A stretch of DNA of 64,000 nt from assembly GCA_000771265.1 (NCBI GenBank), contig JDUB01000008.1, positions 1 through 64,000 of the forward strand, read 5' to 3'. A program made the position numbers and the translations under genes. How positions within the stretch are numbered: the first letter of the stretch is position 1; every line of letters begins with the position of its first letter. The notes below the pieces were generated by a model. The model searched no databases. It had not been told where the DNA came from and was given only the letters and a program-made list of their open reading frames with translations. Below are positions 6,852-63,059 of this stretch, one piece after another. This stretch comes from Bifidobacterium thermophilum DSM 20210. Lineage in GTDB: Bacteria > Actinomycetota > Actinomycetes > Actinomycetales > Bifidobacteriaceae.

Positions 6852-7059
6852 CTCGGCACAACGGGCGCAGGATGTGAGAGGCGAAAAGCGGAGACGGGAG
6901 GCGGGAGATACCCCAGTGTCGTGCGACTGGGTGGTTGCATCGGGCGAGGAAAAACAGACCGAGGGGCCTGTGAATGTGCATCACAGGTCCCTCGGCGGGA
7001 GAGAACAGATGGATGGAAGTGGATGGGGAGAGTAGGAAGGCGGTGGGCTTTCCTTACCC

Positions 7060-7310
7060 CACTGGGCTTTCCTTTACTTCACGGGATCCGGCAATTATTG
7101 ACGGCCTACGGCCGGCGGGATTTTTACCGGGGCGGGGACTATCCCCCGCCCCGGCGCCGTGAACGGAAAGCCCACTGGGCTTTCCTTTACTTCACGGGTC
7201 CTGCAATTTTGGACGGCCTACGGCCGACCACATTTTTTCCGGGCGGGGGGCGTACCCCGCCCGGCGCCGTGAACGGAAAGCCCACTGGGCTTTCCTTTAC
7301 TTCACGGCGC
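7060..7310. repeat. Triplicated hairpin unit containing the 3' end of the permease gene
   Basis: The stretch CACTGGGCTTTCCTTTACTT and its CACGG tail occurs at 7060, 7173 and 7283 (periods 113 and 110 bp). The last copy carries the genuine stop codon and final codons of the permease. Between copies lie further palindromes: GACGGCCTACGGCCG and, at 7127-7153, a GC-rich stem CCGGGGCGGGG/CCCCGCCCCGG. GGAAAGCCCA/TGGGCTTTCC pairs at each of the two complete units. The array probably arose by duplication of the transcription terminator. Confidence 0.8.
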
Positions 7311-17328: not shown

Positions 17329-17418
17329 GAGGTTGCTGGAACCGGTGCGGCGCAGACGTGTAACGCGGCCGCAAACCCAAAGTAAGGGGCGGCGTGAGCC
17401 AACCTTTGGCAGGTCGGC

Positions 17419-17733
17419 GTGTGAGGATTGGCTCGCACAACAGGCTGTCAGGCGGGCGGAATGACTGAGATCGCGTGTTCCGCCCGCCAGTTTGTGAGCG
17501 AATCCTCACACGGCTGCGACCGACAGCCTCCGAAACCGTAGCCCGGGACGCGCAGGCGCCCACTGTGTGAGCGAATCCTCACACAACCACGCTTGACGAC
17601 ACCAAATCAGACTGCCGCAGCCGCTTTGGGGGGGGGCCACATTGTGAGTCAATCCTCACATACCCGCCCTCTGAGGGTCAGATTCTTTCGCCCGGCAGCG
17701 TCAGCATGCCATTGTGTGAGTCAATCCTCACAC
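17419..17733. repeat. Array of five palindromes with core GTGTGAG-N6-CTCACAC
   Basis: Five near-identical palindromes occur at 17419-17438 (inverse orientation), 17492-17511, 17565-17584, 17642-17661 and 17714-17733. The arms are GTGTGAG and CTCACAC and the central bases are CGAATC or TCAATC. Starts are 73, 73, 77 and 72 bp apart. This fills the non-coding space between the bacteriocin ATPase and the DUF5067 gene. The spacers are unlike one another, so it is not a simple tandem repeat. Function is unknown. Confidence 0.85.
17451..17488 (+). terminator. Probable terminator of the bacteriocin operon
   Basis: Perfect 11-bp arms GGCGGGCGGAA (17451-17461) and TTCCGCCCGCC (17478-17488), 122 bp after the ATPase stop. 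There is no T tract. Confidence 0.45.
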
Positions 17734-17756
17734 ACAATCTCACACACAAACAAGCA

Positions 17757-25610: not shown

Positions 25611-27689
25611 ATGACGGAACTGACCCTCGTCCTGTGCATCGTCGGCGCGGTCGTGGTGTCTTCGTTCCTCAGCCGCTTCATTCCGAAAATCTCCACTCCG
25701 CTCGTACAAATCGTGCTGGGGGCCGCCGCAGCCCAACTGCCGTTCTTCCCGGATGTCACCCTCGACCCGGAACTGTTCATGGTATTGTTCATCGCCCCGC
25801 TGCTGTATCTCGAGGCGCGCGGCATCGACAAGACAACGCTGTTGAAGAATCTCAAACTCTCGCTGTCGCTGGCCATCGAGCTGGCAATCGCCACCATGGT
25901 CGCGGTCGGCTACGTGACGCATGCCGCCTGGCCTGCCGTGCCGCTTGCCGCCGCTTTCGCGCTGGGTGCGGCGCTCGGCCCGACCGACGCGGTCGCCGTG
26001 ACATCGCTGAGCCATGAAGCCACGCTGAGCGAACGCCAGCACGGAATCCTTGAAGGCGAATCCCTGTTCAACGACGCCTCCGGCATCGTCGGGTTCCAGT
26101 TCTCAATCCTCGCGGCGACCACCGGTACATTCTCGGTCGGCGCTGCCGCCGGCGAGTTCATCATCTCCTTCCTCGGCGGCACCCTGCTCGGCTTGGCGTT
26201 CGGAGTCTTCGCCAACTGGCTGTTCGGGCTGATGCGCTCGTTCGGCTGGGAAACCACCACGTCACGCATCCTGATGGAATTGTTCCTGCCGTTCCTGCTG
26301 TATCTGGGCGCGGAGGCGATTGGCGTGTCCGGCATCCTCGCGGTCGTCGCGGCGGGCCTGATTGCCCGATACGACCGCAGCGGCGTGGGCCCGAATGTCG
26401 CCCGTACCAACATCGTGTCATCCAGCGTGTGGGCGGTGCTGTCGTTCGCGCTCAACGGCTCGGTGTTCATCATGCTGGGCATGATGCTGCCGGACGTGCT
26501 GGGCACCACATGGTCCGACCCCACGGAAAGCAACATCATGCTGCTGGGAATCATCGTGCTGGTGTCCACCGTAGTGGTCGTAATGCGGTTCGTGTGGGTG
26601 GCCGCCATGTTGCGCATCGCCCGCGACCAGCGCACAGGCCGACGCCGCCGGATGACCCCAGAACGTTGGCGTTCCGCCGCAATCATGACCTTCGGCGGGC
26701 CGAAAGGCACCATCACCCTGTCCCTGATGTTCACCATCCCGTACACCATCGCCGCGGGCGCTGATTTCCCGATGCGCGACGAGCTGATATTCGTGGCCGC
26801 CGGTGTCATCATCGTGACGCTGCTGCTCGCGAACTTCCTGCTGCCGCTGCTCGCACCCACCCACCTGCACAACACCAAGGAGATGGACGACATCACCGTG
26901 GAAGTGCTGCGCCAGACCGTGGAGGAGCTTGCCCGCCGCGTCACCCCAGAGAATCGACGGGCGGTGCTCGCAGTTATCGACTCGTATACGAAGCGCATCA
27001 CCCGGCTCAAACACCGCATCGGCAGCGCCGACCCGCAAGGCTTCGAAGCCCTGCAAATCGAGGCATTGCAATGGGAGAAAGACTTCCTCAAGCAGCGAAT
27101 CATCGACCTGAAAAACGAGGAGCCCGCAACCCCAGCGGCAACCCATCAGCGCGACCTGCATATCGAAGCCTGCGAGCGCATGCTCGACCAGCTGATGACC
27201 ACGTTGCGCCATGCGACAGCAGGGTCAAGAAATTCGCAGGCGGTCTCGCAGATTCGCGGACGGTTCCGCGCGTTGCAACGCCGAGCATCACTGTTTGCGC
27301 GGCGGGTATACGGCAAAATCCTGCGTACGACCCCGTTGATGAGCGAAGACGAAATCTACGCGGCCGTGCGCGGCACCCAGCTTGAAGCGATTCATGTAGT
27401 GATCGGCAAGCTGTATGAGCAGATGCATGCGGGCACCTACAATACCGAGGATTGTTCGGCGCTGATCCTTGATTATCAGCGTGCCGAGGCTTCCCTGCGC
27501 AATCGGCCGAATATGGAGCGCAGCGCGGAGACCATCAACGAGGTGGAGGATGTGAAGCGCGACAGCTATGCGATTGAGCTGGGCATCATCCAGGATCTGT
27601 TCGAGGACGGGCGGATCAACCGTGCCCAGATGCGGCAGTTACGTCGCAACGTGTATGTGATGCAGGTGGATGCGGACTCCGGTGTGTGA
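25611..27689 (+). CDS. CPA1-family Na+/H+ antiporter
   Basis: A 692-residue membrane antiporter exchanging Na+ (or K+) for protons. About 12 spans fill residues 1-425. GPTDAVAVTSLSHEA and EGESLFNDASGIV carry the acidic and polar ion-site residues of the CPA1 family. A large soluble, highly charged C-terminal region (about 430-692) probably regulates activity. AAGGAAGG precedes the ATG at 25611. The stop codon lies inside a copy of the GTGTGAG palindrome. Confidence 0.93.
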   Translation: MTELTLVLCIVGAVVVSSFLSRFIPKISTPLVQIVLGAAAAQLPFFPDVTLDPELFMVLFIAPLLYLEARGIDKTTLLKNLKLSLSLAIELAIATMVAVGYVTHAAWPAVPLAAAFALGAALGPTDAVAVTSLSHEATLSERQHGILEGESLFNDASGIVGFQFSILAATTGTFSVGAAAGEFIISFLGGTLLGLAFGVFANWLFGLMRSFGWETTTSRILMELFLPFLLYLGAEAIGVSGILAVVAAGLIARYDRSGVGPNVARTNIVSSSVWAVLSFALNGSVFIMLGMMLPDVLGTTWSDPTESNIMLLGIIVLVSTVVVVMRFVWVAAMLRIARDQRTGRRRRMTPERWRSAAIMTFGGPKGTITLSLMFTIPYTIAAGADFPMRDELIFVAAGVIIVTLLLANFLLPLLAPTHLHNTKEMDDITVEVLRQTVEELARRVTPENRRAVLAVIDSYTKRITRLKHRIGSADPQGFEALQIEALQWEKDFLKQRIIDLKNEEPATPAATHQRDLHIEACERMLDQLMTTLRHATAGSRNSQAVSQIRGRFRALQRRASLFARRVYGKILRTTPLMSEDEIYAAVRGTQLEAIHVVIGKLYEQMHAGTYNTEDCSALILDYQRAEASLRNRPNMERSAETINEVEDVKRDSYAIELGIIQDLFEDGRINRAQMRQLRRNVYVMQVDADSGV

Positions 27690-27703
27690 GCCAATCCTCA
27701 CAC
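27684..27703. repeat. Sixth copy of the GTGTGAG-N6-CTCACAC palindrome
   Basis: GTGTGAG-CCAATC-CTCACAC, identical in arms to the array at 17.4-17.7 kb, 10 kb away. It contains the antiporter stop codon and lies between convergent genes. Confidence 0.8.
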
Positions 27704-27773
27704 AACGACGCTCGTCGCATGGCACAGTGGCCCGTTCGCCGAGCGCCCACGATCCCGCGCCAGCACGCACCGT

Positions 27774-35110: not shown

Positions 35111-35160
35111 TACACAAACTGGTTACGCTGGGAAGAGTCTCAGCGTAACCAGTTTGTGTA
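35111..35160. repeat. Palindromic element, 20-bp perfect arms (family A, copy 1)
   Basis: TACACAAACTGGTTACGCTG (35111-35130) and its exact reverse complement (35141-35160) flank a 10-nt loop. It is between convergent rlmB and DUF4032 genes. Near-identical elements lie at 47.28 kb and in a degenerate array at 57.3-57.7 kb. Confidence 0.9.
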
Positions 35161-37941: not shown

Positions 37942-38193
37942 AATGTCATCCTTTCAGAGGCAGGTACGTGCCTCACGATCCGTAGTGAGAGGGTTTGGTG
38001 CGTTCACTCGTAGCATCCGACTTCGGAAACTGCAAGCTTCGGCGTTTACTTGTTCCGGTCCATTGAAGGTTCTCTTCGTTGAGCCATGGCCCAGTATACA
38101 CGATGATTTGACATCGGCAAGGGTGTGTCGTTTGACGTGTTGTGCCGGGCCGAAAACAGGGGACGTTCCATACAAACAATCTGCATCGGGATG

Positions 38194-47283: not shown

Positions 47284-47330
47284 CACAAACTGGTTACGCT
47301 GGGGACGCGCTCAGCGTAACCAGTTTGTAG
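47284..47330. repeat. Palindromic element (family A, copy 2)
   Basis: ACAAACTGGTTACGCTG (47285-47301) and its exact reverse complement (47312-47328) around a 10-nt loop, as in the copy at 35.1 kb. It lies between the LytR_C and CCA genes, which converge. Confidence 0.9.
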
Positions 47331-49698: not shown

Positions 49699-51939
49699 AT
49701 GCAGCGTCTGCTGCGCCTGCTGGTCGCCTGTATCCTCGCCGTCGTCGTGCCTTCGATGTTCGGGTATGCTGCCGCAGATGCGAGCGTGGCAAATGCCGCC
49801 AGCGCATCAACCAAGCCCACCTCTACAACCACTTCAAAAACCGCCTCGCGCACCACGCAACGGCAGAGTGACTCCTCAATCTCGATGAGCATTGACAGTG
49901 CGACCCCGGTGGTCACTGCTTCATCCGGCTATCATCTGCAACTCACCTTGCAGAATACGTCGAGTGTAGCCACCGGTGACGGCACGTTGACGGTCGCCGC
50001 GAACGCGCTGTACACCTTCGTTTCGCGCACCGATATCCAGGATTGGGCGCAAGGCCAGTCGCGTATCCCCATGACCAGCCAGCTGTCCCAGATCGATGTT
50101 GGCAACATCGCCGCCCACGGCACCGCGACGGTGAACGTCGATGTGGACGCATCCGCCGAACAATTGGCCTCGATCACCAGTTGGGGGCCCAAGCCGGTGC
50201 GCATCTCCTATGCGTCGGCATCCGACTCGGCCAACGTCTCCCTGCACACCTTCCTGACCCGTTCGACCGACGGACTGAAAACGGCCGACACGCCGGCGAT
50301 GAACATCACGGTTGTCCAACCACTGAGCTCAACCTCCTGGCAGAGCAATACGACCATCGTGTCCAATATCGTCAACGCGGAGCGTTCATGGCTGAACTCG
50401 TCTTCGGTGGCAGACGCGATTTTCACGGGAACCGACGCGGCGAAACGCGAACGCGCCGAATCCCAGCTCGTCGCCAAGCACGCCAAGCTGCAGGTCGTCG
50501 CCGACCCCATATATTTGCAATCCATGTCCATCCCCGCACGGACATCAGCAATCGCCCAGCCTGGCATGTTCGACATCACCGGGTACGCGGCGCTGGACAC
50601 GCCTGACGCCTATCAGTCCGCCGGCGTCAAATCCTCTGATTGGGATGCCTCCGCAAGCATGGCCGCCTACCGTTCGGCGGTCGGCAACACGAATGCGACG
50701 CATACCATCATCGCGTGGCAAGGCAGCGGCCGTTGGACCCGTCAGGCGTTGAATATCGCGCGTCAACAGGGCTATTCGACGGTTATCGCCACCTCCGGCT
50801 ATGACGCCGACACTTCCGGGACGGTCCACACGGGCAAATACGTCGTTCCCACGGATTCCGGCGATGTGACGGTCCTCACTGCCCAGCAGGAGCTGAGCGG
50901 CCTCGCCCAAGGCAAGGCAACCAACAGCGAGGCGGACAGTGAGACAAGCGATGCGGGACGCCTGTCGCGGTTTGTCGCGCAAAGCGCGTTCTACCAGATG
51001 GAACAGCCTTATACATCCCGCAACCTGCTGGTGTGTCTCAAACCCGGGGCATCGACCACGCTGATCGACACCCTGATGAGCGCCGTCGAACAATCCACAT
51101 GGCTCAATCTCACAGACCTGAACACCCTCATCACTTCGGACGCTTATCTCAGCGGCGACGAGACGTCCGACATCGTGCCTCAGAGCTCCGGCATCACCGC
51201 AGCGTCACGCAAACGTCTTGAGGCCGCGTTGTCGACGTTCACGGCCAGCGTGAGGAGTCTGAACCAGTTCAAGGAACATGTCCTGTATTCCAATCCGTCG
51301 TCGTCGCCTTCCGCAAGCGCAACCGCAAGTACGTCCAACAGCGGTGACGAGCAATCACTGGCACGACATGACGCCTCGAAAGTCGCCGAAAACAACGCAA
51401 AAGGCCCTTCCTCATGGATGACATGCCTGAATTCCCTGCAATCACGTATGGGATTGCTTGCGCTATCCGGCAATGCGGCGGTCATCCAGCGTCTGGGCGA
51501 TGCCGCGACCGGTTTGTCGACCACATTGCTGAACAACGTGTCCATAACCCCGACCGATACGGTCACCGTGGTCAGCGAGACTGCAAGCATGCCGGTCACA
51601 GTGACGAACGCGAACCCGTATCCGGTGCGTGTTCGTGTGTCTTCGCTGACCGACTCCATGGAGATTGTGACCAGCCGGTACGCGGATGTCACGGTTCCCG
51701 CCCACGGCGAGGCGCAGGTCACTTTCGCCATCCGTGTGGCGACTTCGGGTTCCACCACGGTGCATCTGACGCTTCTGGACCGTCAGGGCTCCACGTTCTC
51801 GTCGGCACAGACGACGACCATCACCAGTTCCCTGCAAATCAGTGACAAGACCGGCATCGCGTTCATCGGGGTGGCTTTTCTGCTCGGCGTGGTAGGCCTG
51901 TGGCGTCAATTCCATCGGAAGAAAGATCCTGACGAATGA
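49699..51939 (+). CDS. DUF6049-family secreted, membrane-anchored protein
   Basis: A 746-residue protein. A signal peptide (LLRLLVACILAVVVPSMFGYAAADA) lies at residues 3-27. A long outside region follows, ending in a beta-rich domain, and a C-terminal span (about 717-737, TGIAFIGVAFLLGVVGLW) with a positive tail RQFHRKKDPDE anchors it. Actinobacterial homologues always precede murJ and are probably part of wall assembly; no activity is known. The first ATG clear of the Nudix gene is at 49699; TTG at 49660 is an alternative. Its stop overlaps the murJ start (ATGA). Confidence 0.82.
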   Translation: MQRLLRLLVACILAVVVPSMFGYAAADASVANAASASTKPTSTTTSKTASRTTQRQSDSSISMSIDSATPVVTASSGYHLQLTLQNTSSVATGDGTLTVAANALYTFVSRTDIQDWAQGQSRIPMTSQLSQIDVGNIAAHGTATVNVDVDASAEQLASITSWGPKPVRISYASASDSANVSLHTFLTRSTDGLKTADTPAMNITVVQPLSSTSWQSNTTIVSNIVNAERSWLNSSSVADAIFTGTDAAKRERAESQLVAKHAKLQVVADPIYLQSMSIPARTSAIAQPGMFDITGYAALDTPDAYQSAGVKSSDWDASASMAAYRSAVGNTNATHTIIAWQGSGRWTRQALNIARQQGYSTVIATSGYDADTSGTVHTGKYVVPTDSGDVTVLTAQQELSGLAQGKATNSEADSETSDAGRLSRFVAQSAFYQMEQPYTSRNLLVCLKPGASTTLIDTLMSAVEQSTWLNLTDLNTLITSDAYLSGDETSDIVPQSSGITAASRKRLEAALSTFTASVRSLNQFKEHVLYSNPSSSPSASATASTSNSGDEQSLARHDASKVAENNAKGPSSWMTCLNSLQSRMGLLALSGNAAVIQRLGDAATGLSTTLLNNVSITPTDTVTVVSETASMPVTVTNANPYPVRVRVSSLTDSMEIVTSRYADVTVPAHGEAQVTFAIRVATSGSTTVHLTLLDRQGSTFSSAQTTTITSSLQISDKTGIAFIGVAFLLGVVGLWRQFHRKKDPDE

Positions 51940-54900
51940 GTTCCTCGGTTGGACATAATTCCTTCGTGATGGCCGTCGGCACGGCGGCTTCCCGACTGAC
52001 CGGCCAAATCCGTACGATTCTGCTCGCGGCAGCTGTCGGCACCACCGGCATGGCTGCGAACGCGTATCAGGCCGGCTCGATGATCCCGCAGGTGATTTTC
52101 ACGCTGATTTCGGGAGGCATTTTCAACGCGGTGCTCGTCCCCCAGATTGTGCGCACGCTCAAAGAGGATGACGCCGAGGACCGGCTCAACAAGCTCATCA
52201 CCTTCGCCATCGCGCTACTGGCAGGCATCACAATCGCAATGATGCTGCTGACCGCCACCACCCCCGCGTTCACGCATCTGTACGCGAACGGCGGCAAGGA
52301 CATGCTCGCGCTGACGAATGCGTTCGCGCTGTGGTGTATGCCACAGATCTTCTTCTACGGCTTGTATACCGTACTCGGCCAGATTCTGGCGGCGAAAAAC
52401 CATTTCGGCATGTACGCGTGGAGTTCGGTCGCGGCGAATATCGTCAGCTGCGCCGGATTCACGCTGTTCATTGTGATGTTCGGCAAGGCCGATAAGCAGC
52501 CGCTGAGCTTCTGGACCACGGACAAAATCATGCTAACCGCCGGCACGTGGACGCTGGGCGTGGCCGTCCAGGCACTGGTATTGTTCCTGCCCTTGTTCAA
52601 ACTGGGGTTGCGGTACCGCTGGCGTTGGGGTGTCCACGGTATCGGCTTGCGCTCGATGGGTTCGGTGGCCGCGTGGAGTCTGGGGATTGTCGGCATCGAC
52701 CAGCTGCTGACCATCATTTCGACCCGTATCACCACAAACGCCCCACTGCGTGCGCATCAGCTGTTCGGCATTGATGAGACGCTGGTCGCCGGTAATGCCA
52801 CCTACCAAAATGCGTTCACGATTTACATTCTTCCGTATTCGTTGATTGCGGTGTCAGTGGCGACCGCAGTGTTTCCGAGGGTTTCCCGAGCAGTCGCTGA
52901 TAATGATTTAAACACCGCCCGCGATGATTTGAGCGATGCGCTGCGCAATGTCACCCTGCTCATGAGCTTCTTCTCCGCGATATTCGTCGTGTTGTCCGTC
53001 CCGATTTCGCTCGCCTTGCTGCCTTCGATTAGCGTGGGCGAGGCACAGCTGATGTCAGGGCCGATGATTGCGCTGTCACTGTCACTGCCGTTGTCAAGCT
53101 CCTATCTGATCATCCAGCGTACCTTCTACGCCTTCGAGGATGGGCGATCCCCGTTCATATTCATGGCTGTCCAGCTCAGCATTCAGATGCTCACCCTGCT
53201 GATTACCACCAAGGTGCTTTCTCCTCTGGATTGGACGCTGATGCGCGGTGTCGCCGTTACGCTAGCCTATGCACTGTCCTTCCCTCTGCTGGTGTGGATG
53301 CTGCGCAAACGCTTCGAAAACCGCTTGGACGGCCGTCGTATCGCCTTGTCTTATATCAAGGCCACTGCCGCAGCGGTAGCCGCGGCGATTGTCGGTCTAT
53401 GGCTGCGCGGACCCGTGGAACATCTGCTGGGCGCGGAACTCACCCCTTCCGGCGGGCATATGAACTGGTTGCAATCCGTCGGCGTGTGCGTCGTCATCGG
53501 CATTGTGGTGATTGCGGTCTATGTGGGCGCCTTGTGGGGTATGCACACCGAGGAACTGGTCACGATGTTGTCGTCGCTCAAGGCACGGGTCGCCTCCCGA
53601 CGGTCTGGCAATGCGGCGAATGTCGATGGCGATCAGCCTGCCGGCGACACTGCCGACGAATCCGCGGATTCCACCGACACTACCGACACTACCGACACTA
53701 CCGAAACCGCCGACAATCGGGCCACCTCCGGAGAGCCAGACGAACCAAATGATTCAGATGAACCGGACGAACCAGACAATCCCGATAATCCGGACGAACC
53801 AAGCAATCCGGGCAATCGCGCCCCTGACCGGCCAAGAACCGGCCCACAAGCCGATTCTGCGGAAGACACGGCAGTACCCACCGCCGTTTCGACCACTCCA
53901 GTCGTTAGAATGACTACTACTACATCACCCGCGAGCACGCGATTTTCTCGTTATGGAGCCGAAGGAACTATGAAGCCTCAACTGGGAGATACCGTTATCA
54001 ACCGGTATACGTTGGTGTCACTGTTGCGTGACGAACCCGGCCTGCAAGCGTGGAAGGCAAATGACCGTGTCCTCGCGCGTGATTGCCAGCTGTACATCGT
54101 CACCGACGCCGATGCGATCGCCAAAATCGACGCAATCGCATCATCCCTAGCCCTGTCGCGCAACCGTCGTTTCACACAGGTCCTTCAACTCCAGCATCGC
54201 GGTGACGTGTCGATTATCATCACCGCTGTGGATAACGGTTTGTCGCTGACCGATTACTTCCATGGACCGGCGTCAGGAACCCTCAGTCATGCGGCCATGC
54301 GGTCGATTCTCGGCGAAACCGCATCTGCGATGCGTCAGCTCCTGGTGGACGGGCTGTCGCACTACGCGCTGAACACCGATACCATCCGTCTGACCGCGAA
54401 CGGGGTCCAGCTCGCCGATGCGACGCTGAGCCCGATGCTCGCCGACACGTCACATGCCCCGGAAGGGCTCGGGGCCGAGCGTCTGGCGACCCGCCAACTC
54501 GCCGCCGTGTTGTATGCCCTGATCACCCGCACCCCTTCATCGGTGGATACCCAATTCGATTTGTCCAAGCTCGGCCCGGACGTGCCCGGCGAATTCCGTC
54601 TCATCTGCCATCGTGGCCTGGAATCCGACGGGAACGGCAGTGTCATCCCTATGGAGTCGCTTGCCGAGCTCACCGCGCTACTCGGCGACTGGGAACCGTT
54701 GTCGCACTTGCAGAACAGTGATATCGCCCTGCCAAGTATCGATGCAGAATGCTCCATTGCCAACGCAGCGTTGAAAACACCTGTCCCCGGGCATATTCTT
54801 GATTTCCCGCAGGATCTGTCCTCGTCCTTCGAGCAGCATTCGTATGCGCAAGCCGCCCAGGCGAGTGTCTTGCCGGGTGCATCCGCCGCGATTCCTGACG

Positions 54901-56087
54901 CCGGCAGCAACAACACCGACCATGCCGAAGCCCTTGCCGCCCGCCAGCAGGCCATTCAGCAGGCGATGCAGCAGGAATCGGCCGAATGGATGAAGAACAG
55001 CCAGGCGGTTCCCCGCAACCCCAATAGGCAGACCATTCCCCATCCTGAAGTCACCGACAGCAGCGACTACGACTTCCATGACATCGCCGCTGCGGAAGTG
55101 GCCAATATCATGGCTCCGTCCGTTCCCGACCCGGATAACGCGATTTTCCCGAACTTCAACGCGGCGTCCGGCCCGTATACCGACACCCAGGCGACAATGC
55201 GATTCGATTTCGCCCGCAAGGCGGCCAAGAACGCCCATCGTTTGCAGCCGCCGTCGGTGAATGAATCCACGAGCAGGATTCCTGTGTACGATGCGAACGG
55301 TGTGCCGGTTCCCCCCGGTGACGAATCACGACGCGCCTTGGAGAACGAACAGACGCAGATTCTCGCGGCCAACACCCCGGTGAGCCGTCCGCCGAGCTTC
55401 ACGCCGACTGTGGAACCGGAGAAGGAAACGCACGAAGACTACAATCCGGTCACCCAGGACGATGTGGCGGATGAGAAACTGTTCGGCCGATTCAGCACGA
55501 AGGTTGTGGCGATTGTCGTCGTCATTGTGGTGGTTGCGGCGGCCGCCGGACTCGCCCTGCATAGCCTTTCCGGCGGAAGCACACTCGGTGCCGCGAAGCA
55601 GTCGAGTGCATGGCCGTCCCAGAATCTTGACAAGGTGCCATTCGGTAGCAGCACGCCTACCAGTGATGCCTCATCCTCGGGCTCGTCCGGCAAGTCGCAC
55701 ATCATCACCGAGGACAAGGACGCTTCCGCCGTGCCGACGCCCAAGGTTCCGGAGAATAACACCCCGTATTCGATTGATAAACAGGAGTTCCTCACCAAGC
55801 CCGGCGGTCAGGATGGCTACGGCTATTACATGCATCTGAGCGAGCCGGAAAGCGTGTACCGCTTCGTAGTGTCGATTAGGTCTTCCGGCGGCACCGGCTA
55901 CCTGTATGCCAATACAACCGCGGATCCGACGCAGGGCGAGCAGGTCGCTCAGTTCTCCTTTGACGCGAGCGGAACGACCGACGTCAAGCTCACGAAGACG
56001 GTGAAGAGCCAGGACTTCCTCATGTGGGTGCCGAGGGATAGCCTGCCCGGCAACCAGTTGTACATCAAATCGGTCCAGCTGTATTAA
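51936..56087 (+). CDS. murJ: MurJ lipid II flippase fused to a pseudokinase and C-terminal outside domain
   Basis: A 1383-residue protein. Residues 1-545 form a 14-span MurJ/MviN-type flippase (FVMAVGTAASRLTGQIRT at the start, RTFYAFEDG later), moving lipid II across the membrane for wall synthesis. An acidic repeat linker (DTTDTTDT, NPDNPDEPSNP) runs to about 660. From 679 on, GDTVINRYTLV starts a kinase-like fold that lacks HRD, DFG and the ATP Lys, as in mycobacterial MviN. A further span at about 1186-1210 leads to a C-terminal outside beta domain of about 125 residues. GAAGGA stands 3 nt before an in-frame ATG at 53970, a possible internal start. Confidence 0.93.
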   Translation: MSSSVGHNSFVMAVGTAASRLTGQIRTILLAAAVGTTGMAANAYQAGSMIPQVIFTLISGGIFNAVLVPQIVRTLKEDDAEDRLNKLITFAIALLAGITIAMMLLTATTPAFTHLYANGGKDMLALTNAFALWCMPQIFFYGLYTVLGQILAAKNHFGMYAWSSVAANIVSCAGFTLFIVMFGKADKQPLSFWTTDKIMLTAGTWTLGVAVQALVLFLPLFKLGLRYRWRWGVHGIGLRSMGSVAAWSLGIVGIDQLLTIISTRITTNAPLRAHQLFGIDETLVAGNATYQNAFTIYILPYSLIAVSVATAVFPRVSRAVADNDLNTARDDLSDALRNVTLLMSFFSAIFVVLSVPISLALLPSISVGEAQLMSGPMIALSLSLPLSSSYLIIQRTFYAFEDGRSPFIFMAVQLSIQMLTLLITTKVLSPLDWTLMRGVAVTLAYALSFPLLVWMLRKRFENRLDGRRIALSYIKATAAAVAAAIVGLWLRGPVEHLLGAELTPSGGHMNWLQSVGVCVVIGIVVIAVYVGALWGMHTEELVTMLSSLKARVASRRSGNAANVDGDQPAGDTADESADSTDTTDTTDTTETADNRATSGEPDEPNDSDEPDEPDNPDNPDEPSNPGNRAPDRPRTGPQADSAEDTAVPTAVSTTPVVRMTTTTSPASTRFSRYGAEGTMKPQLGDTVINRYTLVSLLRDEPGLQAWKANDRVLARDCQLYIVTDADAIAKIDAIASSLALSRNRRFTQVLQLQHRGDVSIIITAVDNGLSLTDYFHGPASGTLSHAAMRSILGETASAMRQLLVDGLSHYALNTDTIRLTANGVQLADATLSPMLADTSHAPEGLGAERLATRQLAAVLYALITRTPSSVDTQFDLSKLGPDVPGEFRLICHRGLESDGNGSVIPMESLAELTALLGDWEPLSHLQNSDIALPSIDAECSIANAALKTPVPGHILDFPQDLSSSFEQHSYAQAAQASVLPGASAAIPDAGSNNTDHAEALAARQQAIQQAMQQESAEWMKNSQAVPRNPNRQTIPHPEVTDSSDYDFHDIAAAEVANIMAPSVPDPDNAIFPNFNAASGPYTDTQATMRFDFARKAAKNAHRLQPPSVNESTSRIPVYDANGVPVPPGDESRRALENEQTQILAANTPVSRPPSFTPTVEPEKETHEDYNPVTQDDVADEKLFGRFSTKVVAIVVVIVVVAAAAGLALHSLSGGSTLGAAKQSSAWPSQNLDKVPFGSSTPTSDASSSGSSGKSHIITEDKDASAVPTPKVPENNTPYSIDKQEFLTKPGGQDGYGYYMHLSEPESVYRFVVSIRSSGGTGYLYANTTADPTQGEQVAQFSFDASGTTDVKLTKTVKSQDFLMWVPRDSLPGNQLYIKSVQLY

Positions 56088-56327: not shown

Positions 56328-57269
56328 ATGAGCGAACAGACAACAGACGTGATCATCATCGGCTCCGGGCCTGCCGGCTACACTGCGGCCATTTATCTGG
56401 GCCGCGCCGGGTATCATCCAGTAGTCATTGCCGGGGCGCTCACGCCCGGCGGACAGCTGGTCAATACCACTGAAGTGGAGAACTTCCCCGGGTTCCCAGA
56501 CGGCATCATGGGCCCTGATCTCATGGATGCCATGCGCAAGCAAGCTGAGCGTTTCGGCGCCGAAATCGTCTATGACGACGTGGTCAGCGCGGATGTGCAG
56601 GGCGATTCCAAGCGTGTTGTGCTGGACGGTGGGGATACATATACCGCCCGTGCTGTAATCGTGGCCACCGGCTCGCAGGTACGCAAACTCGGGGTGCCGG
56701 GCGAAGTCGAATACTCCGGCCGCGGTGTTTCGTACTGTGCCACCTGCGACGGATTCTTCTTCCGCGGCAAGCCCATTGTCGTGGTCGGCGGCGGTGACAG
56801 TGCGCTGACCGAGGCTGACTTCCTGAGCCGTTTCGGTTCTTCGGTGACGGTGATCCATCGGCGTGACACATTCCGAGCCTCGCGCATTCTGGTTGACCGG
56901 GCGGAAAAGAACCCGAAGATTGATTTCCGGATGAACGCCGTGGTGGAGCGTGTTAACGGCGATGATGAGTCGGGTGCCCACTCCGTGACGATTCGCGATA
57001 CGGTGACCGGCGATACGACTGAAATCCCGGCCAACGGTGTTTTCGTCGCAATCGGGCACACACCTGCCACTGAATTCCTTCACGGTGCCCTTCAACTTGA
57101 TGAGCATGGGTATATCACTGTTGATGGTGCTTCGACTCGTACCAGTGTGCCTGGCGTGTTTGCAGCGGGTGATGTGGTGGATGGCGTCTACCGGCAAGCC
57201 ATTTCGGCAGCTGGCATGGGTTGCCGCGCAGCCCTCGACGCGCAAGCCTACCTCGCCGAACAAGCCTGA
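56328..57269 (+). CDS. trxB: Thioredoxin-disulfide reductase
   Basis: A 313-residue flavoenzyme passing electrons from NADPH to thioredoxin. The FAD loop is GSGPAGYTAAIYLGRAG, the redox pair C137/C140 is in YCATCDG, the NADPH site is VVGGGDSALTEA, and the second FAD contact is FAAGDVVDG. The pattern is that of the classic low-molecular-weight enzyme. It is followed by the hairpin array, not by a thioredoxin gene. murJ-trxB-parB order is common near actinobacterial origins. Confidence 0.95.
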   Translation: MSEQTTDVIIIGSGPAGYTAAIYLGRAGYHPVVIAGALTPGGQLVNTTEVENFPGFPDGIMGPDLMDAMRKQAERFGAEIVYDDVVSADVQGDSKRVVLDGGDTYTARAVIVATGSQVRKLGVPGEVEYSGRGVSYCATCDGFFFRGKPIVVVGGGDSALTEADFLSRFGSSVTVIHRRDTFRASRILVDRAEKNPKIDFRMNAVVERVNGDDESGAHSVTIRDTVTGDTTEIPANGVFVAIGHTPATEFLHGALQLDEHGYITVDGASTRTSVPGVFAAGDVVDGVYRQAISAAGMGCRAALDAQAYLAEQA

Positions 57270-57340: not shown

Positions 57341-57693
57341 CACAAACTGTCTACGCAAACCGGCTTGCCAGCGTAACCAGATTGTGTGATCTCTCAAACT
57401 GGTTACGCTCAGCACGACCCTAGCGTAGATAGTTTGTATATCAACTCAACTGGCTACACTCAGCACCGCCTAGGCGTAGCCAGTTTGTACACTTACTCAA
57501 TCTGGTTACGCAAACCGCCTTGCCAGCGTAACCAGATTGTGTGATTCCTCAAACCGGTTACGCTCAACACCACCGCGACGTCACTGATTCGTACCATCGC
57601 CCAAACTGGTTACGCTCAGCACGACCCTGACGTAGATAGTTTGATTGCCACCCAATCTGCTTACGCCTTGGCCCCGGCGTGACCAGATTGTCG
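57341..57693. repeat. Array of seven degenerate family A palindromes
   Basis: Seven imperfect inverted repeats of 44-50 bp follow each other at about 57341, 57391, 57442, 57496, 57548, 57600 and 57650. Each has the form CTCAAACTGGTTACGCT, a 10-15 nt middle such as CAGCACGACCCT, then AGCGTAGATAGTTTG or AGCGTAACCAGATTG. Several pairs show matching changes on both arms (for example CAAACTG/AGTTTG versus CAATCTG/CAGATTG), so pairing has been kept while sequence drifted. Single perfect copies occur at 35.1 and 47.3 kb. The rest of the gap up to 58024 shows no feature. Confidence 0.85.
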
Positions 57694-58024
57694 GTCTTTG
57701 CGATACGGACGAATTCCGCTATCATCGGCAGAGACATTCCCTCACCTCCACTGATTGCCGGCAGCGGCGCCACAATCCGACTTTCGTCAGCTATCGCCAG
57801 CTGAGATTGTCACATCCCCATACCAGCCCGTATCCCGTGTTGTACCACAGCGCAGCGCCGATTGAATGGCATTCGATGCTGAAAATTACCATAAAGCAAT
57901 CTGATTGTTCCGAATACCTGAAATCCGTTATACGACCTGGCACGCCGTATCACAGCAGATTCCCGACCGAATTCAAGCACGGCCGCACACAGTGCAGTCA
58001 CCATCACCTAGTGAACAACAGAAT

Positions 58025-58058
58025 CCCCGGATTTCTGCTGCAAATCAGAAATCCGGGG
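58025..58058 (-). terminator. Terminator hairpin downstream of parB
   Basis: Perfect 13-bp arms CCCCGGATTTCTG (58025-58037) and CAGAAATCCGGGG (58046-58058), 60 bp beyond the parB stop on the minus strand, with ATTCTGTTG after it. Confidence 0.7.
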
Positions 58059-58118
58059 AGACCTGGATTGCGGCCCCACCGCATTTTCAGCTCAAGAGTC
58101 CAGGAAATCCGCCTTGTA

Positions 58119-59669
58119 TCACACCCAGTCAGATTCCCCATCAGCGCCTGCAGAAACATTCCCCTCCTGCTGCTGCGGCATCAGAATGTCCAGAATCCGC
58201 TGCATATCATCTGGCGACGAGAATGTAATCTCGATCCGCCCTTTCTTCTGATTACCCTTGATCGTCACCTTGGTGTCCAAGCGCTGTTCAAGGTGCTGCC
58301 GAATCGGAGAATCAGCCCACGGGTTCGCGACCTTCTTGTTCTCCTTCTTGGGCTTCTCCCCCGCCATGGTCTTCAACGCGACGATTTCCTCCGTGCTGCG
58401 TACGGAAAGACCCTCAGCGATGATTCTGTTGGCAAGCTTGTCCATATCTTCCTCATTCGACAACCCAAGCAAGGCACGCGCATGGCCAGCAGACAATACA
58501 CCCGCGGCGACTTTCTTCTGGACTGAGGCCGGAAGATTCAGCAACCGTAAGGTATTCGCAATCTGTGGCCTGGACTTAGACACGGACTTCGACAACTGTG
58601 CCTGGGTCAGTCCAAACTCATCAATCATCTGCTGATATGCAGCCGCCTCTTCAAGAGGATTCAAGGCGACTCGGTGCAAATTCTCAAGCAACGCGTCACG
58701 AAGCATCTCGTTGTCGGATGTCGTCTTGACGATTGCCGGAATGGTCTCCAGTCCAGCAAGCTGCGAGGCTCTCCACCTGCGCTCTCCCATAATCAGTTCG
58801 TATGGTCGGCGCATCACATCGTTGGTATCGTCGGTATCTGCCTGATGTTCTGCCGATGCCACAATCTGTGATTGAGGCCGCTTACGCACCACAATCGGCT
58901 GCAATACACCGACCTCGCGGATCGATTCGGCAAGCTCCCGCAACTCGTCCTCATCAAAGATGGTTCGCGGCTGTTCTTTGTTTGGGCCGATGTCATCCAG
59001 CTTTAACTCGGCCAGATAACCGCCCTGCACTGGTTTCAGTTCTTCGTTCCGCCCATCAGTGTCTGCCGCTGTTTCACGTGAAACATTGTCATCCGTAGAA
59101 CCATTTCTATTGTCGGCATCGGCGATTGCTTCGTCCGAACGAGCGCGGGACGCTTCCTCATTGGCTACAAACGTCGCGTCAGTCGCACGATTCTGCTGCA
59201 CCTTGTTCTCGTCTGCAGCGCGCTTCTCTACGACCGCTTCCGTTGATTGCATTGCCCCGAAGAACACGTCGCTCGGATGAGTCATTTCTTCAAGCGACGG
59301 AATGCTCATCCGATGCTGCAAACGTGACTGCCCATGCGCATGCTGCTTGGTATTGGCAGATGCAGCATGAGTCGATGTTTCAGATGTTGCAGATGTTTCA
59401 CGTGAAACATCGTCATGCTTCCGCTGATGTTGCGGTCGTGCCTCTACCGAAGCCGTATCACGGGCAGGCGTCCGATTCTGCGCATGCTTGTTCTCACGCT
59501 GCGATGTGCCGGAAGATGCCTTGTCCTGCTTTACCAATGTACTGGCATCAGCCTCAACTGCGGCAGTATGATTCGGCTCAGTGGCCTGTTGTTTGGACTC
59601 ATTTGGATCTCCAGGCAATGCAGGGAACAATGCTCCAAGCCCCTTGCCCAGACGTGACTTCGTTGCCAT
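58119..59669 (-). CDS. parB: Chromosome-partitioning protein ParB
   Basis: A 516-residue centromere-binding protein and CTPase. It has an unusually long N-terminal region (about 1-225) of low-complexity sequence; typical ParBs have about 300 residues. The ParB/Srx domain follows with LDDIGPNKEQPRTIFDED, ELIMGERRWRASQLAGL (CTP-binding GERRWRA) and LLENLHRVALNPLEEA. The helix-turn-helix is FGLTQAQLSKSVSKSRPQIANTLRLL. Two perfect parS sites are embedded in its own coding sequence, each translated as VSRET (first at residues 88-92). The ATG directly follows the parA stop, so the two are coupled. Confidence 0.95.
   Translation of the reverse strand: MATKSRLGKGLGALFPALPGDPNESKQQATEPNHTAAVEADASTLVKQDKASSGTSQRENKHAQNRTPARDTASVEARPQHQRKHDDVSRETSATSETSTHAASANTKQHAHGQSRLQHRMSIPSLEEMTHPSDVFFGAMQSTEAVVEKRAADENKVQQNRATDATFVANEEASRARSDEAIADADNRNGSTDDNVSRETAADTDGRNEELKPVQGGYLAELKLDDIGPNKEQPRTIFDEDELRELAESIREVGVLQPIVVRKRPQSQIVASAEHQADTDDTNDVMRRPYELIMGERRWRASQLAGLETIPAIVKTTSDNEMLRDALLENLHRVALNPLEEAAAYQQMIDEFGLTQAQLSKSVSKSRPQIANTLRLLNLPASVQKKVAAGVLSAGHARALLGLSNEEDMDKLANRIIAEGLSVRSTEEIVALKTMAGEKPKKENKKVANPWADSPIRQHLEQRLDTKVTIKGNQKKGRIEITFSSPDDMQRILDILMPQQQEGNVSAGADGESDWV
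59071..59086. promoter_or_regulatory. parS site 1 (inside parB)
   Basis: Perfect TGTTTCACGTGAAACA, the ParB-binding consensus. Confidence 0.92.
59394..59409. promoter_or_regulatory. parS site 2 (inside parB)
   Basis: Perfect TGTTTCACGTGAAACA, encoding VSRET at ParB residues 88-92. Confidence 0.92.
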
Positions 59670-60614
59670 TCAGTGCTCACCTCGTTTTGCTTCCAAAGTT
59701 GCCAAGACCGCCGGAGATCTCCTCGCAATTTCAAGAGCCGCTTCCCCATAGGCAATCGCTCCCATGCCATGCGGGTCATATGCAATCACCGTCTGCTGAA
59801 AACTCGGTGCTTCTGAAATCTTAACCGAACGTGGAATCGTCGTGTCAAGTACGATATTGGGATAATGGCTCTTCACTTCATCATAAACTTGACGGCTCAG
59901 AATCGTACGCTTGTCAAACATCGTCACCAACATAGTGGATACCAACAGCACAGGATTGTAATGCTCCTGTACCAAACCGATGGTGTTGATGAGCTGTCCC
60001 AATCCTTCGAGCGCATAATACTCAGCTTGGATAGGAATCAGTACTTCCGTCACCGCGCACATCGCATTGATTACCAGCAGGCCCAAGCTTGGCGGACAAT
60101 CGACAAATACATAGTCGTAAGGCTCTTCGCATGATTCTAGATACTCATCCAAGGCATGCTTGAGCAAATCTGTCCTGTCGCCAAGATCGGCAATTTCAAG
60201 CTCCGCGCCGCTCAAATCAATAGACGCTGGGACGACATCCATATGATCAAATGACGGGCATTGCTGAATCGCTTCACGAATCGTCGTACGCCCCTCGATG
60301 ACATCATATATCGAGGGTTCACCGGAGATGTGGTGCGCACCCAATGCCGTGGACGCATTGCCCTGAGGATCCATATCGAGAACAAGTACCCTTGCTCCAC
60401 TATCCGCAAGAGCAGCCGCAAGGTTCACCGTGGTTGTAGTCTTGCCCACGCCACCTTTCTGATTGGCGACCGCAATACGACGCGTTGATGCCGGCTTCGG
60501 GAATGTCACCATATGAAGAGCTTGATACCTGGTGGTTTCCTCGGCGATTTCACTGCCAAGCGAATCCGCTTGGTCGCCAAATATCCGACGGATGATATCC
60601 GAGGCGGAATCCAT
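59670..60614 (-). CDS. parA: Chromosome-partitioning ATPase ParA
   Basis: A 314-residue Walker-type ATPase that segregates ParB-bound origins. The deviant Walker A KGGVGKTTT has K53 and K58; VLVLDMDPQGNAS and YVFVDCPPSLG are the A' and B motifs. An N-terminal helix (about 1-45, DIIRRIFGDQADSLGSEI) precedes the core. AGGGGG lies 7 nt before the ATG at 60614; the frame continues to 60767 through the DnaA-box region but without support. It forms an operon with parB. Confidence 0.95.
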   Translation of the reverse strand: MDSASDIIRRIFGDQADSLGSEIAEETTRYQALHMVTFPKPASTRRIAVANQKGGVGKTTTTVNLAAALADSGARVLVLDMDPQGNASTALGAHHISGEPSIYDVIEGRTTIREAIQQCPSFDHMDVVPASIDLSGAELEIADLGDRTDLLKHALDEYLESCEEPYDYVFVDCPPSLGLLVINAMCAVTEVLIPIQAEYYALEGLGQLINTIGLVQEHYNPVLLVSTMLVTMFDKRTILSRQVYDEVKSHYPNIVLDTTIPRSVKISEAPSFQQTVIAYDPHGMGAIAYGEAALEIARRSPAVLATLEAKRGEH

Positions 60615-60738
60615 GGACCGACCCCCTTGCTCTGAACCTGTTGAACGCTGTGCAGCCGTCGACAAAGCTCCTCCTTGATATGCAGTTGTTCCAGTTTCCC
60701 CACTGCACTGGACATGCCCAGCAAGATATCCACCGTAT

Positions 60739-60887
60739 TGTGGATAAATGTGGACAACATTGCACAACTTTGTGGATAACCTAGTTTCATCTCGTCATAA
60801 ACCCGCAGGAAATCGCGGAAACAACATTTCCCAAAGGTAAACACGATTATTGTGGATAACTTTTTTGCGACGTGAAAATGTGGATAA
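60739..60887. promoter_or_regulatory. Cluster of DnaA boxes upstream of parA
   Basis: Four perfect TTATCCACA boxes (read as TGTGGATAA on the plus strand) at 60739-60747, 60771-60779, 60851-60859 and 60879-60887, plus a one-mismatch TGTGGACAA at 60749-60757. TGTGGATAACCTAGTTTC is repeated exactly at 60771 and 60879. All face the same way. They lie in the likely parA promoter. Confidence 0.8.
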
Positions 60888-60974
60888 CCTAGTTTCTTGA
60901 AGTGGGAATAAGTGGTGCTAGACCTTGATTTGCCCTATCCGTATTTACATCCGATATCAATCAACAGATGTCAA

Positions 60975-60990
60975 TGTTTCACGTGAAACA
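60975..60990. promoter_or_regulatory. parS site 3
   Basis: Perfect TGTTTCACGTGAAACA, extended to a 20-bp palindrome by CAA/TTG flanks. Confidence 0.93.
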
Positions 60991-61475
60991 TTGACTAGAA
61001 TGTGCGACGATGCTTGTGAGTGGCTATTATCATCCACACAATTCATCGCTGATTGTGTTGTCCAAAACGAATCAATCTTGCCATGTCACTTCAGACATGT
61101 AGCAACAACATAGTGTACGTAACTACGTTGCTGGGTATCTAACATGTCTTTACAGATGCCAAATTGTGGCTTGATGGCTTCCCCACTCCGGAAGTATTCC
61201 TGCTGTCCACCGTGATGCGGCAGTTTCCTTCATACGCCCACCAAGCACGGGCGCGCCGGTTCTGGATTCTTGATTTTCGCAATCCCTGTGAGATACGACG
61301 TCAACAGACCAGTAACACCACCGATCTACCGGGATTCATGTGTAAGCGGTTCATCACACCCACAGCACACAACTCCTGTTGGAGCGCAACAGCATGATGA
61401 GCAACAGGATGGATTCCACACATCCCGTCTCACACTATTCGTCGAACCAGCTCATCCACACAATTGATGGAACGA

Positions 61476-61491
61476 TGTTTCACGTGAAACA
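61476..61491. promoter_or_regulatory. parS site 4
   Basis: Perfect TGTTTCACGTGAAACA. Confidence 0.93.
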
Positions 61492-61653
61492 TTCCAATCC
61501 TGCAATCCAGCAACCACTGAGCTTTGGGAGATTGCCACCTCACTCCGTTTAACACATCAAGACGTATTTATCCAAACAAAATCACACCAGCGCTGCATCC
61601 ATCGGTATAAAGGGAACAGAATGCAATTAAGAACACTCTCACTCAACCCGCGA

Positions 61654-61669
61654 TGTTTCACGTGAAACA
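61654..61669. promoter_or_regulatory. parS site 5
   Basis: Perfect TGTTTCACGTGAAACA, with GA/TC flanks extending the palindrome. Confidence 0.93.
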
Positions 61670-62181
61670 TCATCCTTGATTTGGAATTCGCCTGTCAGAT
61701 GGCGCACATCGCTACGTATTACTAAACAGTGGCAACCTAGACTCTCTGTATCACTCTCCCTCACACCTTGTTGGATGAGGGGCCAGGTCCCGACGGCGCT
61801 ATCATTATTAGCACATTTCCCGCCAATTATAGTGTGACTACGTCATCCTATCGGCAAGCAACGAATTCACGGCGGATACTGTTCTCAATACGCCTGCAAT
61901 ATGAGACCTGGAAATATGACACCGACACAACAACCCACAAACGCTGATGAATTTGGAAACCGGCAACAGGTGGCAACTGCCCGACCCTACAGAAGATCCC
62001 ATCAGCATTATCAGTATCAGGCATGTGATTACAGACCGACACAAGCTGTGTTCAATGCCACCGGTGATGTCATTCCCAACTGTCCCAGCGCAAGTCATTC
62101 GGTATCAAGACTTTCTTCATCTGAATGAGTGTGGATCTAATCGGCGAAACATCTATAGTCACCGTTCTGCAAGCCTGTTGA

Positions 62182-62197
62182 TGTTTCACGTGAAACA
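62182..62197. promoter_or_regulatory. parS site 6
   Basis: Perfect TGTTTCACGTGAAACA, with symmetric TGA/TCA flanks. Confidence 0.93.
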
Positions 62198-62356
62198 TCA
62201 GCCTCGTAGACTAATACGAACAATTCTTGATGTGAGCCCTCACCTTACGGAAATGTAAACACTAGCGAGAGAACTGAGAGAACGATATTGGAAGTAGAAC
62301 AGTGCAGCAGGATGCTGGTGTACTGGTATTGATTACAACACCCGAACTATCGATGA

Positions 62357-62372
62357 TGTTTCACGTGAAACA
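62357..62372. promoter_or_regulatory. parS site 7
   Basis: Perfect TGTTTCACGTGAAACA; flanks CGATGA/TCATCG extend the palindrome to 28 bp. Confidence 0.93.
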
Positions 62373-63043
62373 TCATCGCTTCAACAGACAACTCGTAGTC
62401 GAGTTTGTCACAGTATCCACAACTAGCAATATCAGGAAAGCAAGTCAGTGCATCAGTAGTTGAACATTCAAATTATACACAGAAAGCGAAATCATGGCAG
62501 AGGCAACAAATGGAGGAATTCACCTATAAGTACATCATCCGACTCTCCTACTCCCAACATTGAGTCGCCAGCGTACAGGGAAATCGTGGTGCCGATGATG
62601 CGACTAATCCATTGCAGGAGTGGACATGTCGTGATGCGAGTAATCATTCGCTGATTCATATCTGAAGGTCTGAAATTCGTGTTCGAACATAGTTTCATGC
62701 CGGGAACTCGTGTGTCCACAATCGTTTCATGTATCCAATACTTGACGTACAGACGTAACCGAAAGAAGCACACCACATCGACACCCCGACTGCGCCGCGT
62801 AATAGAGGCAACGGTGTCACCGCAATCGGCATACAAGCAAACAGGACGAATGCCTCTGCCGTTGAGACGGGACTGTGTTTCCACGAAGGACACGTTGGAT
62901 GAGAAAACACGAAGTCAAAGGCGCTACGCCGTTCTAGTAATCGTCAACCCACAAAATTCGCAGGCATACCACCCGCACTATCATCGGTACTCAGCCACGG
63001 CTGATTCCAACATCGAGCCTTGCCCAACACGACATTGGTGGAA

Positions 63044-63059
63044 TGTTTCACGTGAAACA
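63044..63059. promoter_or_regulatory. parS site 8
   Basis: Perfect TGTTTCACGTGAAACA, flanked by TGGTGGAA/TTCCACCA, making a 32-bp palindrome. Confidence 0.93.

Follow-up and report, generated by a model that had tools for sequence, protein, structure and literature searches.

Repeats and genes of the window

The window, which is the whole stretch of 64,000 nucleotides analysed, holds an array of seven palindromic repeats between trxB (+ strand, ending at 57269) and parB (- strand, ending at 58119). A Pfam family search identifies the neighbours as a thioredoxin-reductase-like protein and ParB; the TrxB protein is 81-93% identical to those of the close relatives B. apri, B. boum, and B. thermophilum. 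The array is built from degenerate copies of an element, here called F1, with the form CAAACTGGTTACGCT-N12-AGCGTAACCAGTTTG: 42 bp in length, two 15-nt arms, and a variable 12-nt centre. The only flanking signal is Y-A ahead of this core and T-R behind it, which makes the palindrome longer. Two perfect copies of F1 lie elsewhere in the window, each between convergent genes, one flanked by genes for a SpoU methylase and a DUF4032 protein (assigned by Pfam family search, also for the convergent count below) and the other as listed in Table 1. The distances to the convergent stops are 29-76 nt at 35.1 kb and 56-175 nt at 47.3 kb. The seven degenerate copies and the two perfect ones had been described correctly in an earlier note made from the letters of this DNA, although the loops of the perfect copies, given there as 10 nt, are both 12 nt. 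The 15-nt arm pattern, at up to 3 mismatches, has 16 matches in the window against 0.84 expected, a number never reached in 100 shuffles.

Table 1. Coordinates of the F1 elements and of other features in the window
Feature	Position	Strand	Remarks
F1, perfect (15-12-15)	35115-35156	.	Full stem 24 bp, 4-nt loop
F1, perfect	47286-47327	.	Flanked by LytR_C gene (+) and PolyA_pol gene (-)
Whole array	57343-57690	.	Seven units, 51-52 bp start to start
Array unit 1	57343-57384	.	11/15 arm pairs
Array unit 2	57395-57436	.	12/15 arm pairs; loop CAGCACGACCCT, identical in unit 6
Array unit 3	57446-57487	.	11/15 arm pairs
Array unit 4	57498-57539	.	14/15 arm pairs; paired AATCTG/CAGATTG change
Array unit 5	57550-57591	.	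9/15 arm pairs, decayed
Array unit 6	57602-57643	.	10/15 arm pairs
Array unit 7	57653-57690	.	Shortened; 8-nt loop, the only array unit without a 12-nt loop
parB 3' hairpin	58024-58059	-	Strong, T-rich tail, kept in B. apri
parS sites	59070-63059		Eight perfect sites (TGTTTCACGTGAAACA), two within parB
Direct repeat	7058-7307		110 bp, about 2.2 copies, 88% matches
Palindrome set	17418-17734		Five TGTGTGAG-N6-CTCACACA-like palindromes, 72-77 bp spacing
Sixth palindrome of this set	27683-27704		
msiK RNA (RF01747)	37942-38000	-	60 bits; cis-regulatory RNA candidate
MurJ-type protein gene	51936-56087	+	1383 aa; long C-terminal extension with 9-bp and 27-bp repeats (53673-53817)

The two single copies fold strongly on both strands (z about -6 to -8); the one at 35115-35156 reaches an MFE of about -41 kcal/mol and z of about -8 on either strand. 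In the array, units 1 and 5 of the seven fold no more stably than shuffled sequences, and a terminator scan of the array called no terminator. Across F1 arrays, an alternative register, in which each right arm pairs with the next left arm across a 10-nt loop, is no better than the normal one (10.86 vs 10.97 pairs). Because parB has its own terminator-like hairpin, likely the parB terminator, any role of the array would most likely concern trxB.

The window holds other repeats as well. The set of palindromes between 17 and 28 kb, similar copies of which occur in stretches of B. apri and B. thermophilum, may be an array of regulator operators or a further palindromic repeat. An Rfam covariance-model search of the window found only tRNA and the msiK RNA, with no match to F1; a processed structured RNA, which the earlier note had raised as a possibility, would therefore be of a kind outside Rfam.

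Copy number, placement, and related families

F1 is abundant. The 2.22-Mb genome contains 101 copies of the degenerate pattern at up to 3 mismatches (0 for a reversed-pattern control), and a genome search gives 10 exact copies and 48 with up to 3 arm mismatches. When the gap was left free at 3-20 nt, the searches returned 12-nt loops alone. In 230 kb of sequence, 92 elements have up to 8 arm mismatches, compared with none below 11 in one Markov-simulated control. At three loci (L049, L071, and L080), several F1 elements are about 150 bp or less from a contig end, and copy number may be underestimated if the assembly breaks at F1 repeats.

In 649 kb of contiguous sequence only 1 of 82 F1 and F2 elements (F2 is described below) lies inside a gene, and F1 occupies 11/56 convergent gaps and 5/171 tandem gaps (p=1.4e-4), along with 4/49 divergent ones. 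Each of the ten exact copies is found between convergent genes. A spacing of exactly 52 bp separates 30 of 33 close F1 pairs in the 230 kb from the genome of the window. The genome-wide count suggested by the earlier note gives about 101 copies that are almost all intergenic; F1 extends well beyond the window and is conserved in close relatives (see below).

The sampled sequence of two genomes contains 21 F1 arrays, mostly at 52-bp spacing and with F1 and F2 mixed. The same note had placed the trxB array beside the centromere. The array is indeed near parS, but arrays occur at many loci, and a specific link to the centromere is ruled out.

The exact arm sequence is hardly ever found alone: just 3 of 51 exact arms fall outside catalogued elements (C1:126806; C6:90, at a contig end; and C9:47809). 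This observation bears on the proposal that F1 is a DNA-uptake sequence in inverted pairs that also works as a terminator, an arrangement found in Neisseria and Haemophilus. Repeated arm sequences, inverted pairs, and location at gene ends would all fit, but uptake sequences also occur singly, and we consider this explanation highly improbable.

Two further families share the design of F1. F2, (C/G)CTTCTGCCGACGCT-N12-AGCGTCGGCAGAAG(G/C), shares the geometry and period of F1 and occupies the same intergenic regions. F2 elements of 42-bp geometry are mixed with F1 at L067, L070, L084, and other loci of genome G000, where some F1/F2 neighbours are 40 or 63 bp apart. F3, with arms CAAACTGCCGACGCT or CAAACTACCGACGCT and a period of 51-52 bp, occurs in two other species (G024 and G142). 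All three families have the core CTG---ACGCT ... AGCGT---CAG in common. A combined model, with at most 150 candidates scored per genome, matches in 16 of 112 congeners and strongly in about seven. Judged from sequence, F1, F2, and F3 are best read as a clade-specific, REP-like palindrome superfamily limited to part of the genus Bifidobacterium. No paper describing these palindromes was found in the literature searched.

Pairing between the arms

Whether the two arms of an element change together depends on its context. Across all 92 elements there are 12.09 Watson-Crick pairs per 15 arm positions vs 12.20 after right arms have been exchanged at random between elements, and elements in arrays fall below the shuffle (11.22 vs 11.68). 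Each arm draws independently on a common set of variants (GGTT, GGCT, GTCT, and AGCT). Singles between convergent genes, on the other hand, pair above shuffles (p=0.0016), and among singles overall the flanking pairs -1 to -3 / +1 to +3 covary (p=0.013, 0.0025, and 0.017). The elements in these comparisons were picked by closeness to the consensus, so that compensated copies are under-counted; the B. apri copy at 47 kb, for example, was missed.

Compensating changes in the trxB array, as the earlier note had proposed, are therefore rejected, since its pairing is no better than that of arms shuffled among elements. The paired AATCTG/CAGATTG change is real in unit 4, with 14/15 pairs, but units 1, 2, 3, 5, and 6 have only 9-12. 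The accompanying idea that selection maintains the pairing is supported for single convergent copies only and not for the array.

Selection on RNA was also sought in G.U versus A.C mismatches. Where neighbouring genes run in tandem, 46 G.T and 5 A.C arm mismatches are counted on the transcript strand. This excess is not used as proof, because unpaired loop positions are also G/T-rich and shuffled arms pair equally well; it is accounted for by biased strand composition or by a subfamily with a fixed orientation.

The main rival explanation is that the elements are sites for a DNA-binding protein, which may be a regulator, a nucleoid-associated protein, or, as in BIME-2, gyrase. The 15-bp arm would be a half-site, the 12-bp and 10-bp spacings would set the helical phase, and the 52-bp period, close to five turns, would make the arrays phased platforms. 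A bound protein would explain why arm sequence is kept although loops and spacers, constant in length, are free to vary in sequence, why both arms draw on one variant set, and why 52-bp spacing, found in 30/33 close F1 pairs, recurs in the F2 and F3 arrays. However, a protein site needs neither complementarity that runs into the flanks of convergent singles nor the covariation that keeps it. The bias toward gene 3' junctions and the unrelated hairpins that take the place of the element at orthologous junctions (see below) also argue against protein sites, and we regard this explanation as unlikely.

A more specific version extends to all three families: their arrays would be phased platforms for a putative bifidobacterial chromosome-organising or termination protein, and convergent singles would be protein-assisted transcription stops. 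This version draws on the finding that three families with different arms have the same 15-12-15 geometry and five-turn, 52-bp period. It is quite unlikely.

Orthologous junctions in related species

At the spoU/DUF4032 junction (35.1 kb), species of the thermophilum group retain F1 with stems of 18-30 bp; orthologues of the window copy are found in the B. apri, B. boum, and B. thermophilum relatives, and G111 has compensated arm changes, CAAACTGGGTACGCC...GGCGTACCCAGTTTT. Among the other congeners the comparison covers junctions that could be resolved and have a short gap, and most of these carry a strong unrelated hairpin, e.g. AAAAAAGCTCAAGCC-TTAT-GGCTTGAGCTTTTTT. Some of the replacement hairpins have A/T tracts. 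One resolved junction, L185, has a weak hairpin only.

The counterpart of the 47.3-kb copy in B. apri is ACAACCGGTCATGCT-N12-AGCATGACCGGTTGT, in which each arm carries five substitutions, all compensated, leaving the element fully paired. In B. boum and B. thermophilum this junction is occupied by another hairpin. Alignment with relatives rules out a clean insertion of F1, as a different hairpin is in place rather than an empty site.

At the trxB/parB junction it is the number of units that differs: seven in the window, four in B. apri, and one ordinary hairpin in B. boum and B. thermophilum. From its sequence, the window array appears to equal a B. apri-like 4-unit array plus an internal duplication of about 156 bp (3 units). 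Loops of units within the same array are identical at 7.1 of 12 positions vs 4.3 of 12 for random pairs. The likeness of units within arrays and the different unit counts between species suggest that arrays arise by local tandem duplication of the 52-bp unit. The trxB array would then be a tandemly amplified and partly decayed F1 unit with relaxed pairing. Another locus has 3 elements in the genome of the window vs 13 in B. apri.

Such variation could also reflect a palindrome that resembles a MITE or REPIN, is non-autonomous, is moved by a transposase, and has no host role, with arrays as neutral tandem duplications. Changes in copy number or array length between close species at one locus (3 vs 13, 1 vs 7) and asymmetric subfamily copies that recur at many loci are consistent with this proposal. 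However, there is no Y1 transposase in four element-rich genomes, neither a clean empty site nor a target duplication was found, and at orthologous loci the arms are perfect while the loops have diverged, which indicates constraint. We consider a purely mobile palindrome to be rather improbable.

Proposed function

The favored explanation, to which we assign a probability of roughly 60%, is that F1 and its kin form a REP-like superfamily in which singles are bidirectional, terminator-type 3'-end hairpins, arrays are tandem 52-bp duplications, and spread is RAYT-independent. A single F1 between convergent genes would be transcribed from both sides, and its transcript would fold into a long hairpin at which the 3' ends of both genes are defined or terminated. 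The proposal would account for the perfect pairing of single convergent copies, because the hairpin is needed for both 3' ends. The trxB array would represent tandem amplification of the F1 unit, in which a single working unit, or a few, would be enough. New copies would arise by a route independent of RAYT. Taken together, the enrichment in convergent gaps, the compensated changes, and the replacement by other hairpins at orthologous junctions argue for 3'-end hairpins.

Several observations do not fit a simple terminator. The tail of singles is mixed, of the GTTTGTGTAT type, and itself pairs; a clean U-tract is not seen after the elements, and the 3' flank of F2 arms is not U-rich either. 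A pure hairpin constraint does not explain why arms are conserved while loops diverge, or why variants are shuffled between arms. The exact 52-bp period in many arrays, the presence of F1 in 4/49 divergent gaps, and the weak hairpin at L185 also count against terminators.

Comparison with known systems

The REP and BIME elements of Enterobacteria and Pseudomonas (PMC2817692, PMC3733652) are alike in being short intergenic palindromes, present in tens to hundreds of copies at gene 3' ends, in forming regularly spaced clusters, and in having several sequence types in one genome. In contrast, F1 has no GTAG tag or RAYT/Y1 gene, has fixed 15-nt arms around a 12-nt variable centre, and resides in Bifidobacterium. 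Its arrays are head-to-tail at 52 bp and do not show the alternating orientation of an asymmetric unit seen in BIME clusters.

The earlier suggestion of a REP-like mobile palindrome agrees with the copy number, clusters, convergent-end enrichment, and gain or expansion from species to species, but not with the search for the REP-associated tyrosine transposase that was to accompany it: Y1_Tnp (PF01797) is missing from the four element-rich genomes. The whole search found none in G000, G035, G106, G111, G024, and G142, and detected the family in 5 of 14 control genomes, E. coli included. Neither a GTAG nor a CGTC tag was found at the stem end in F1 or F2 flanks. Membership in REP/RAYT as defined in PMC2817692 and PMC3733652 is rejected on both counts, transposase and tag.

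CGTC REPs are likewise palindromic repeats with no dedicated transposase (PMC3733652). Their stems measure 8-9 bp and their loops 4-5 nt, a CGTC tag stands at the terminus, and clusters are rare (PMC3733652); F1 has none of these traits.

Bidirectional intrinsic terminators resemble F1 in having a long stem-loop between convergent stops, an AT-rich outer stem, and other hairpins at the site in related species. F1 differs in showing no clean U-tract, in the use of one arm sequence at about 100 loci, and in its tandem arrays. Inverted DNA uptake sequences that act as terminators (PMC2267715) share the repeated sequence, inverted pairs, and terminator-like hairpins, but F1 arms hardly ever occur singly, which disfavours uptake.

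The F1 superfamily would be REP-like with neither RAYT nor terminal tags, and its strict length and period are absent from described REP families. Sister species that have either the repeat or an unrelated hairpin at the same junctions provide a natural comparison for the uptake of repeats as terminators. The superfamily also offers a case for a short palindrome that spreads with no known transposase.
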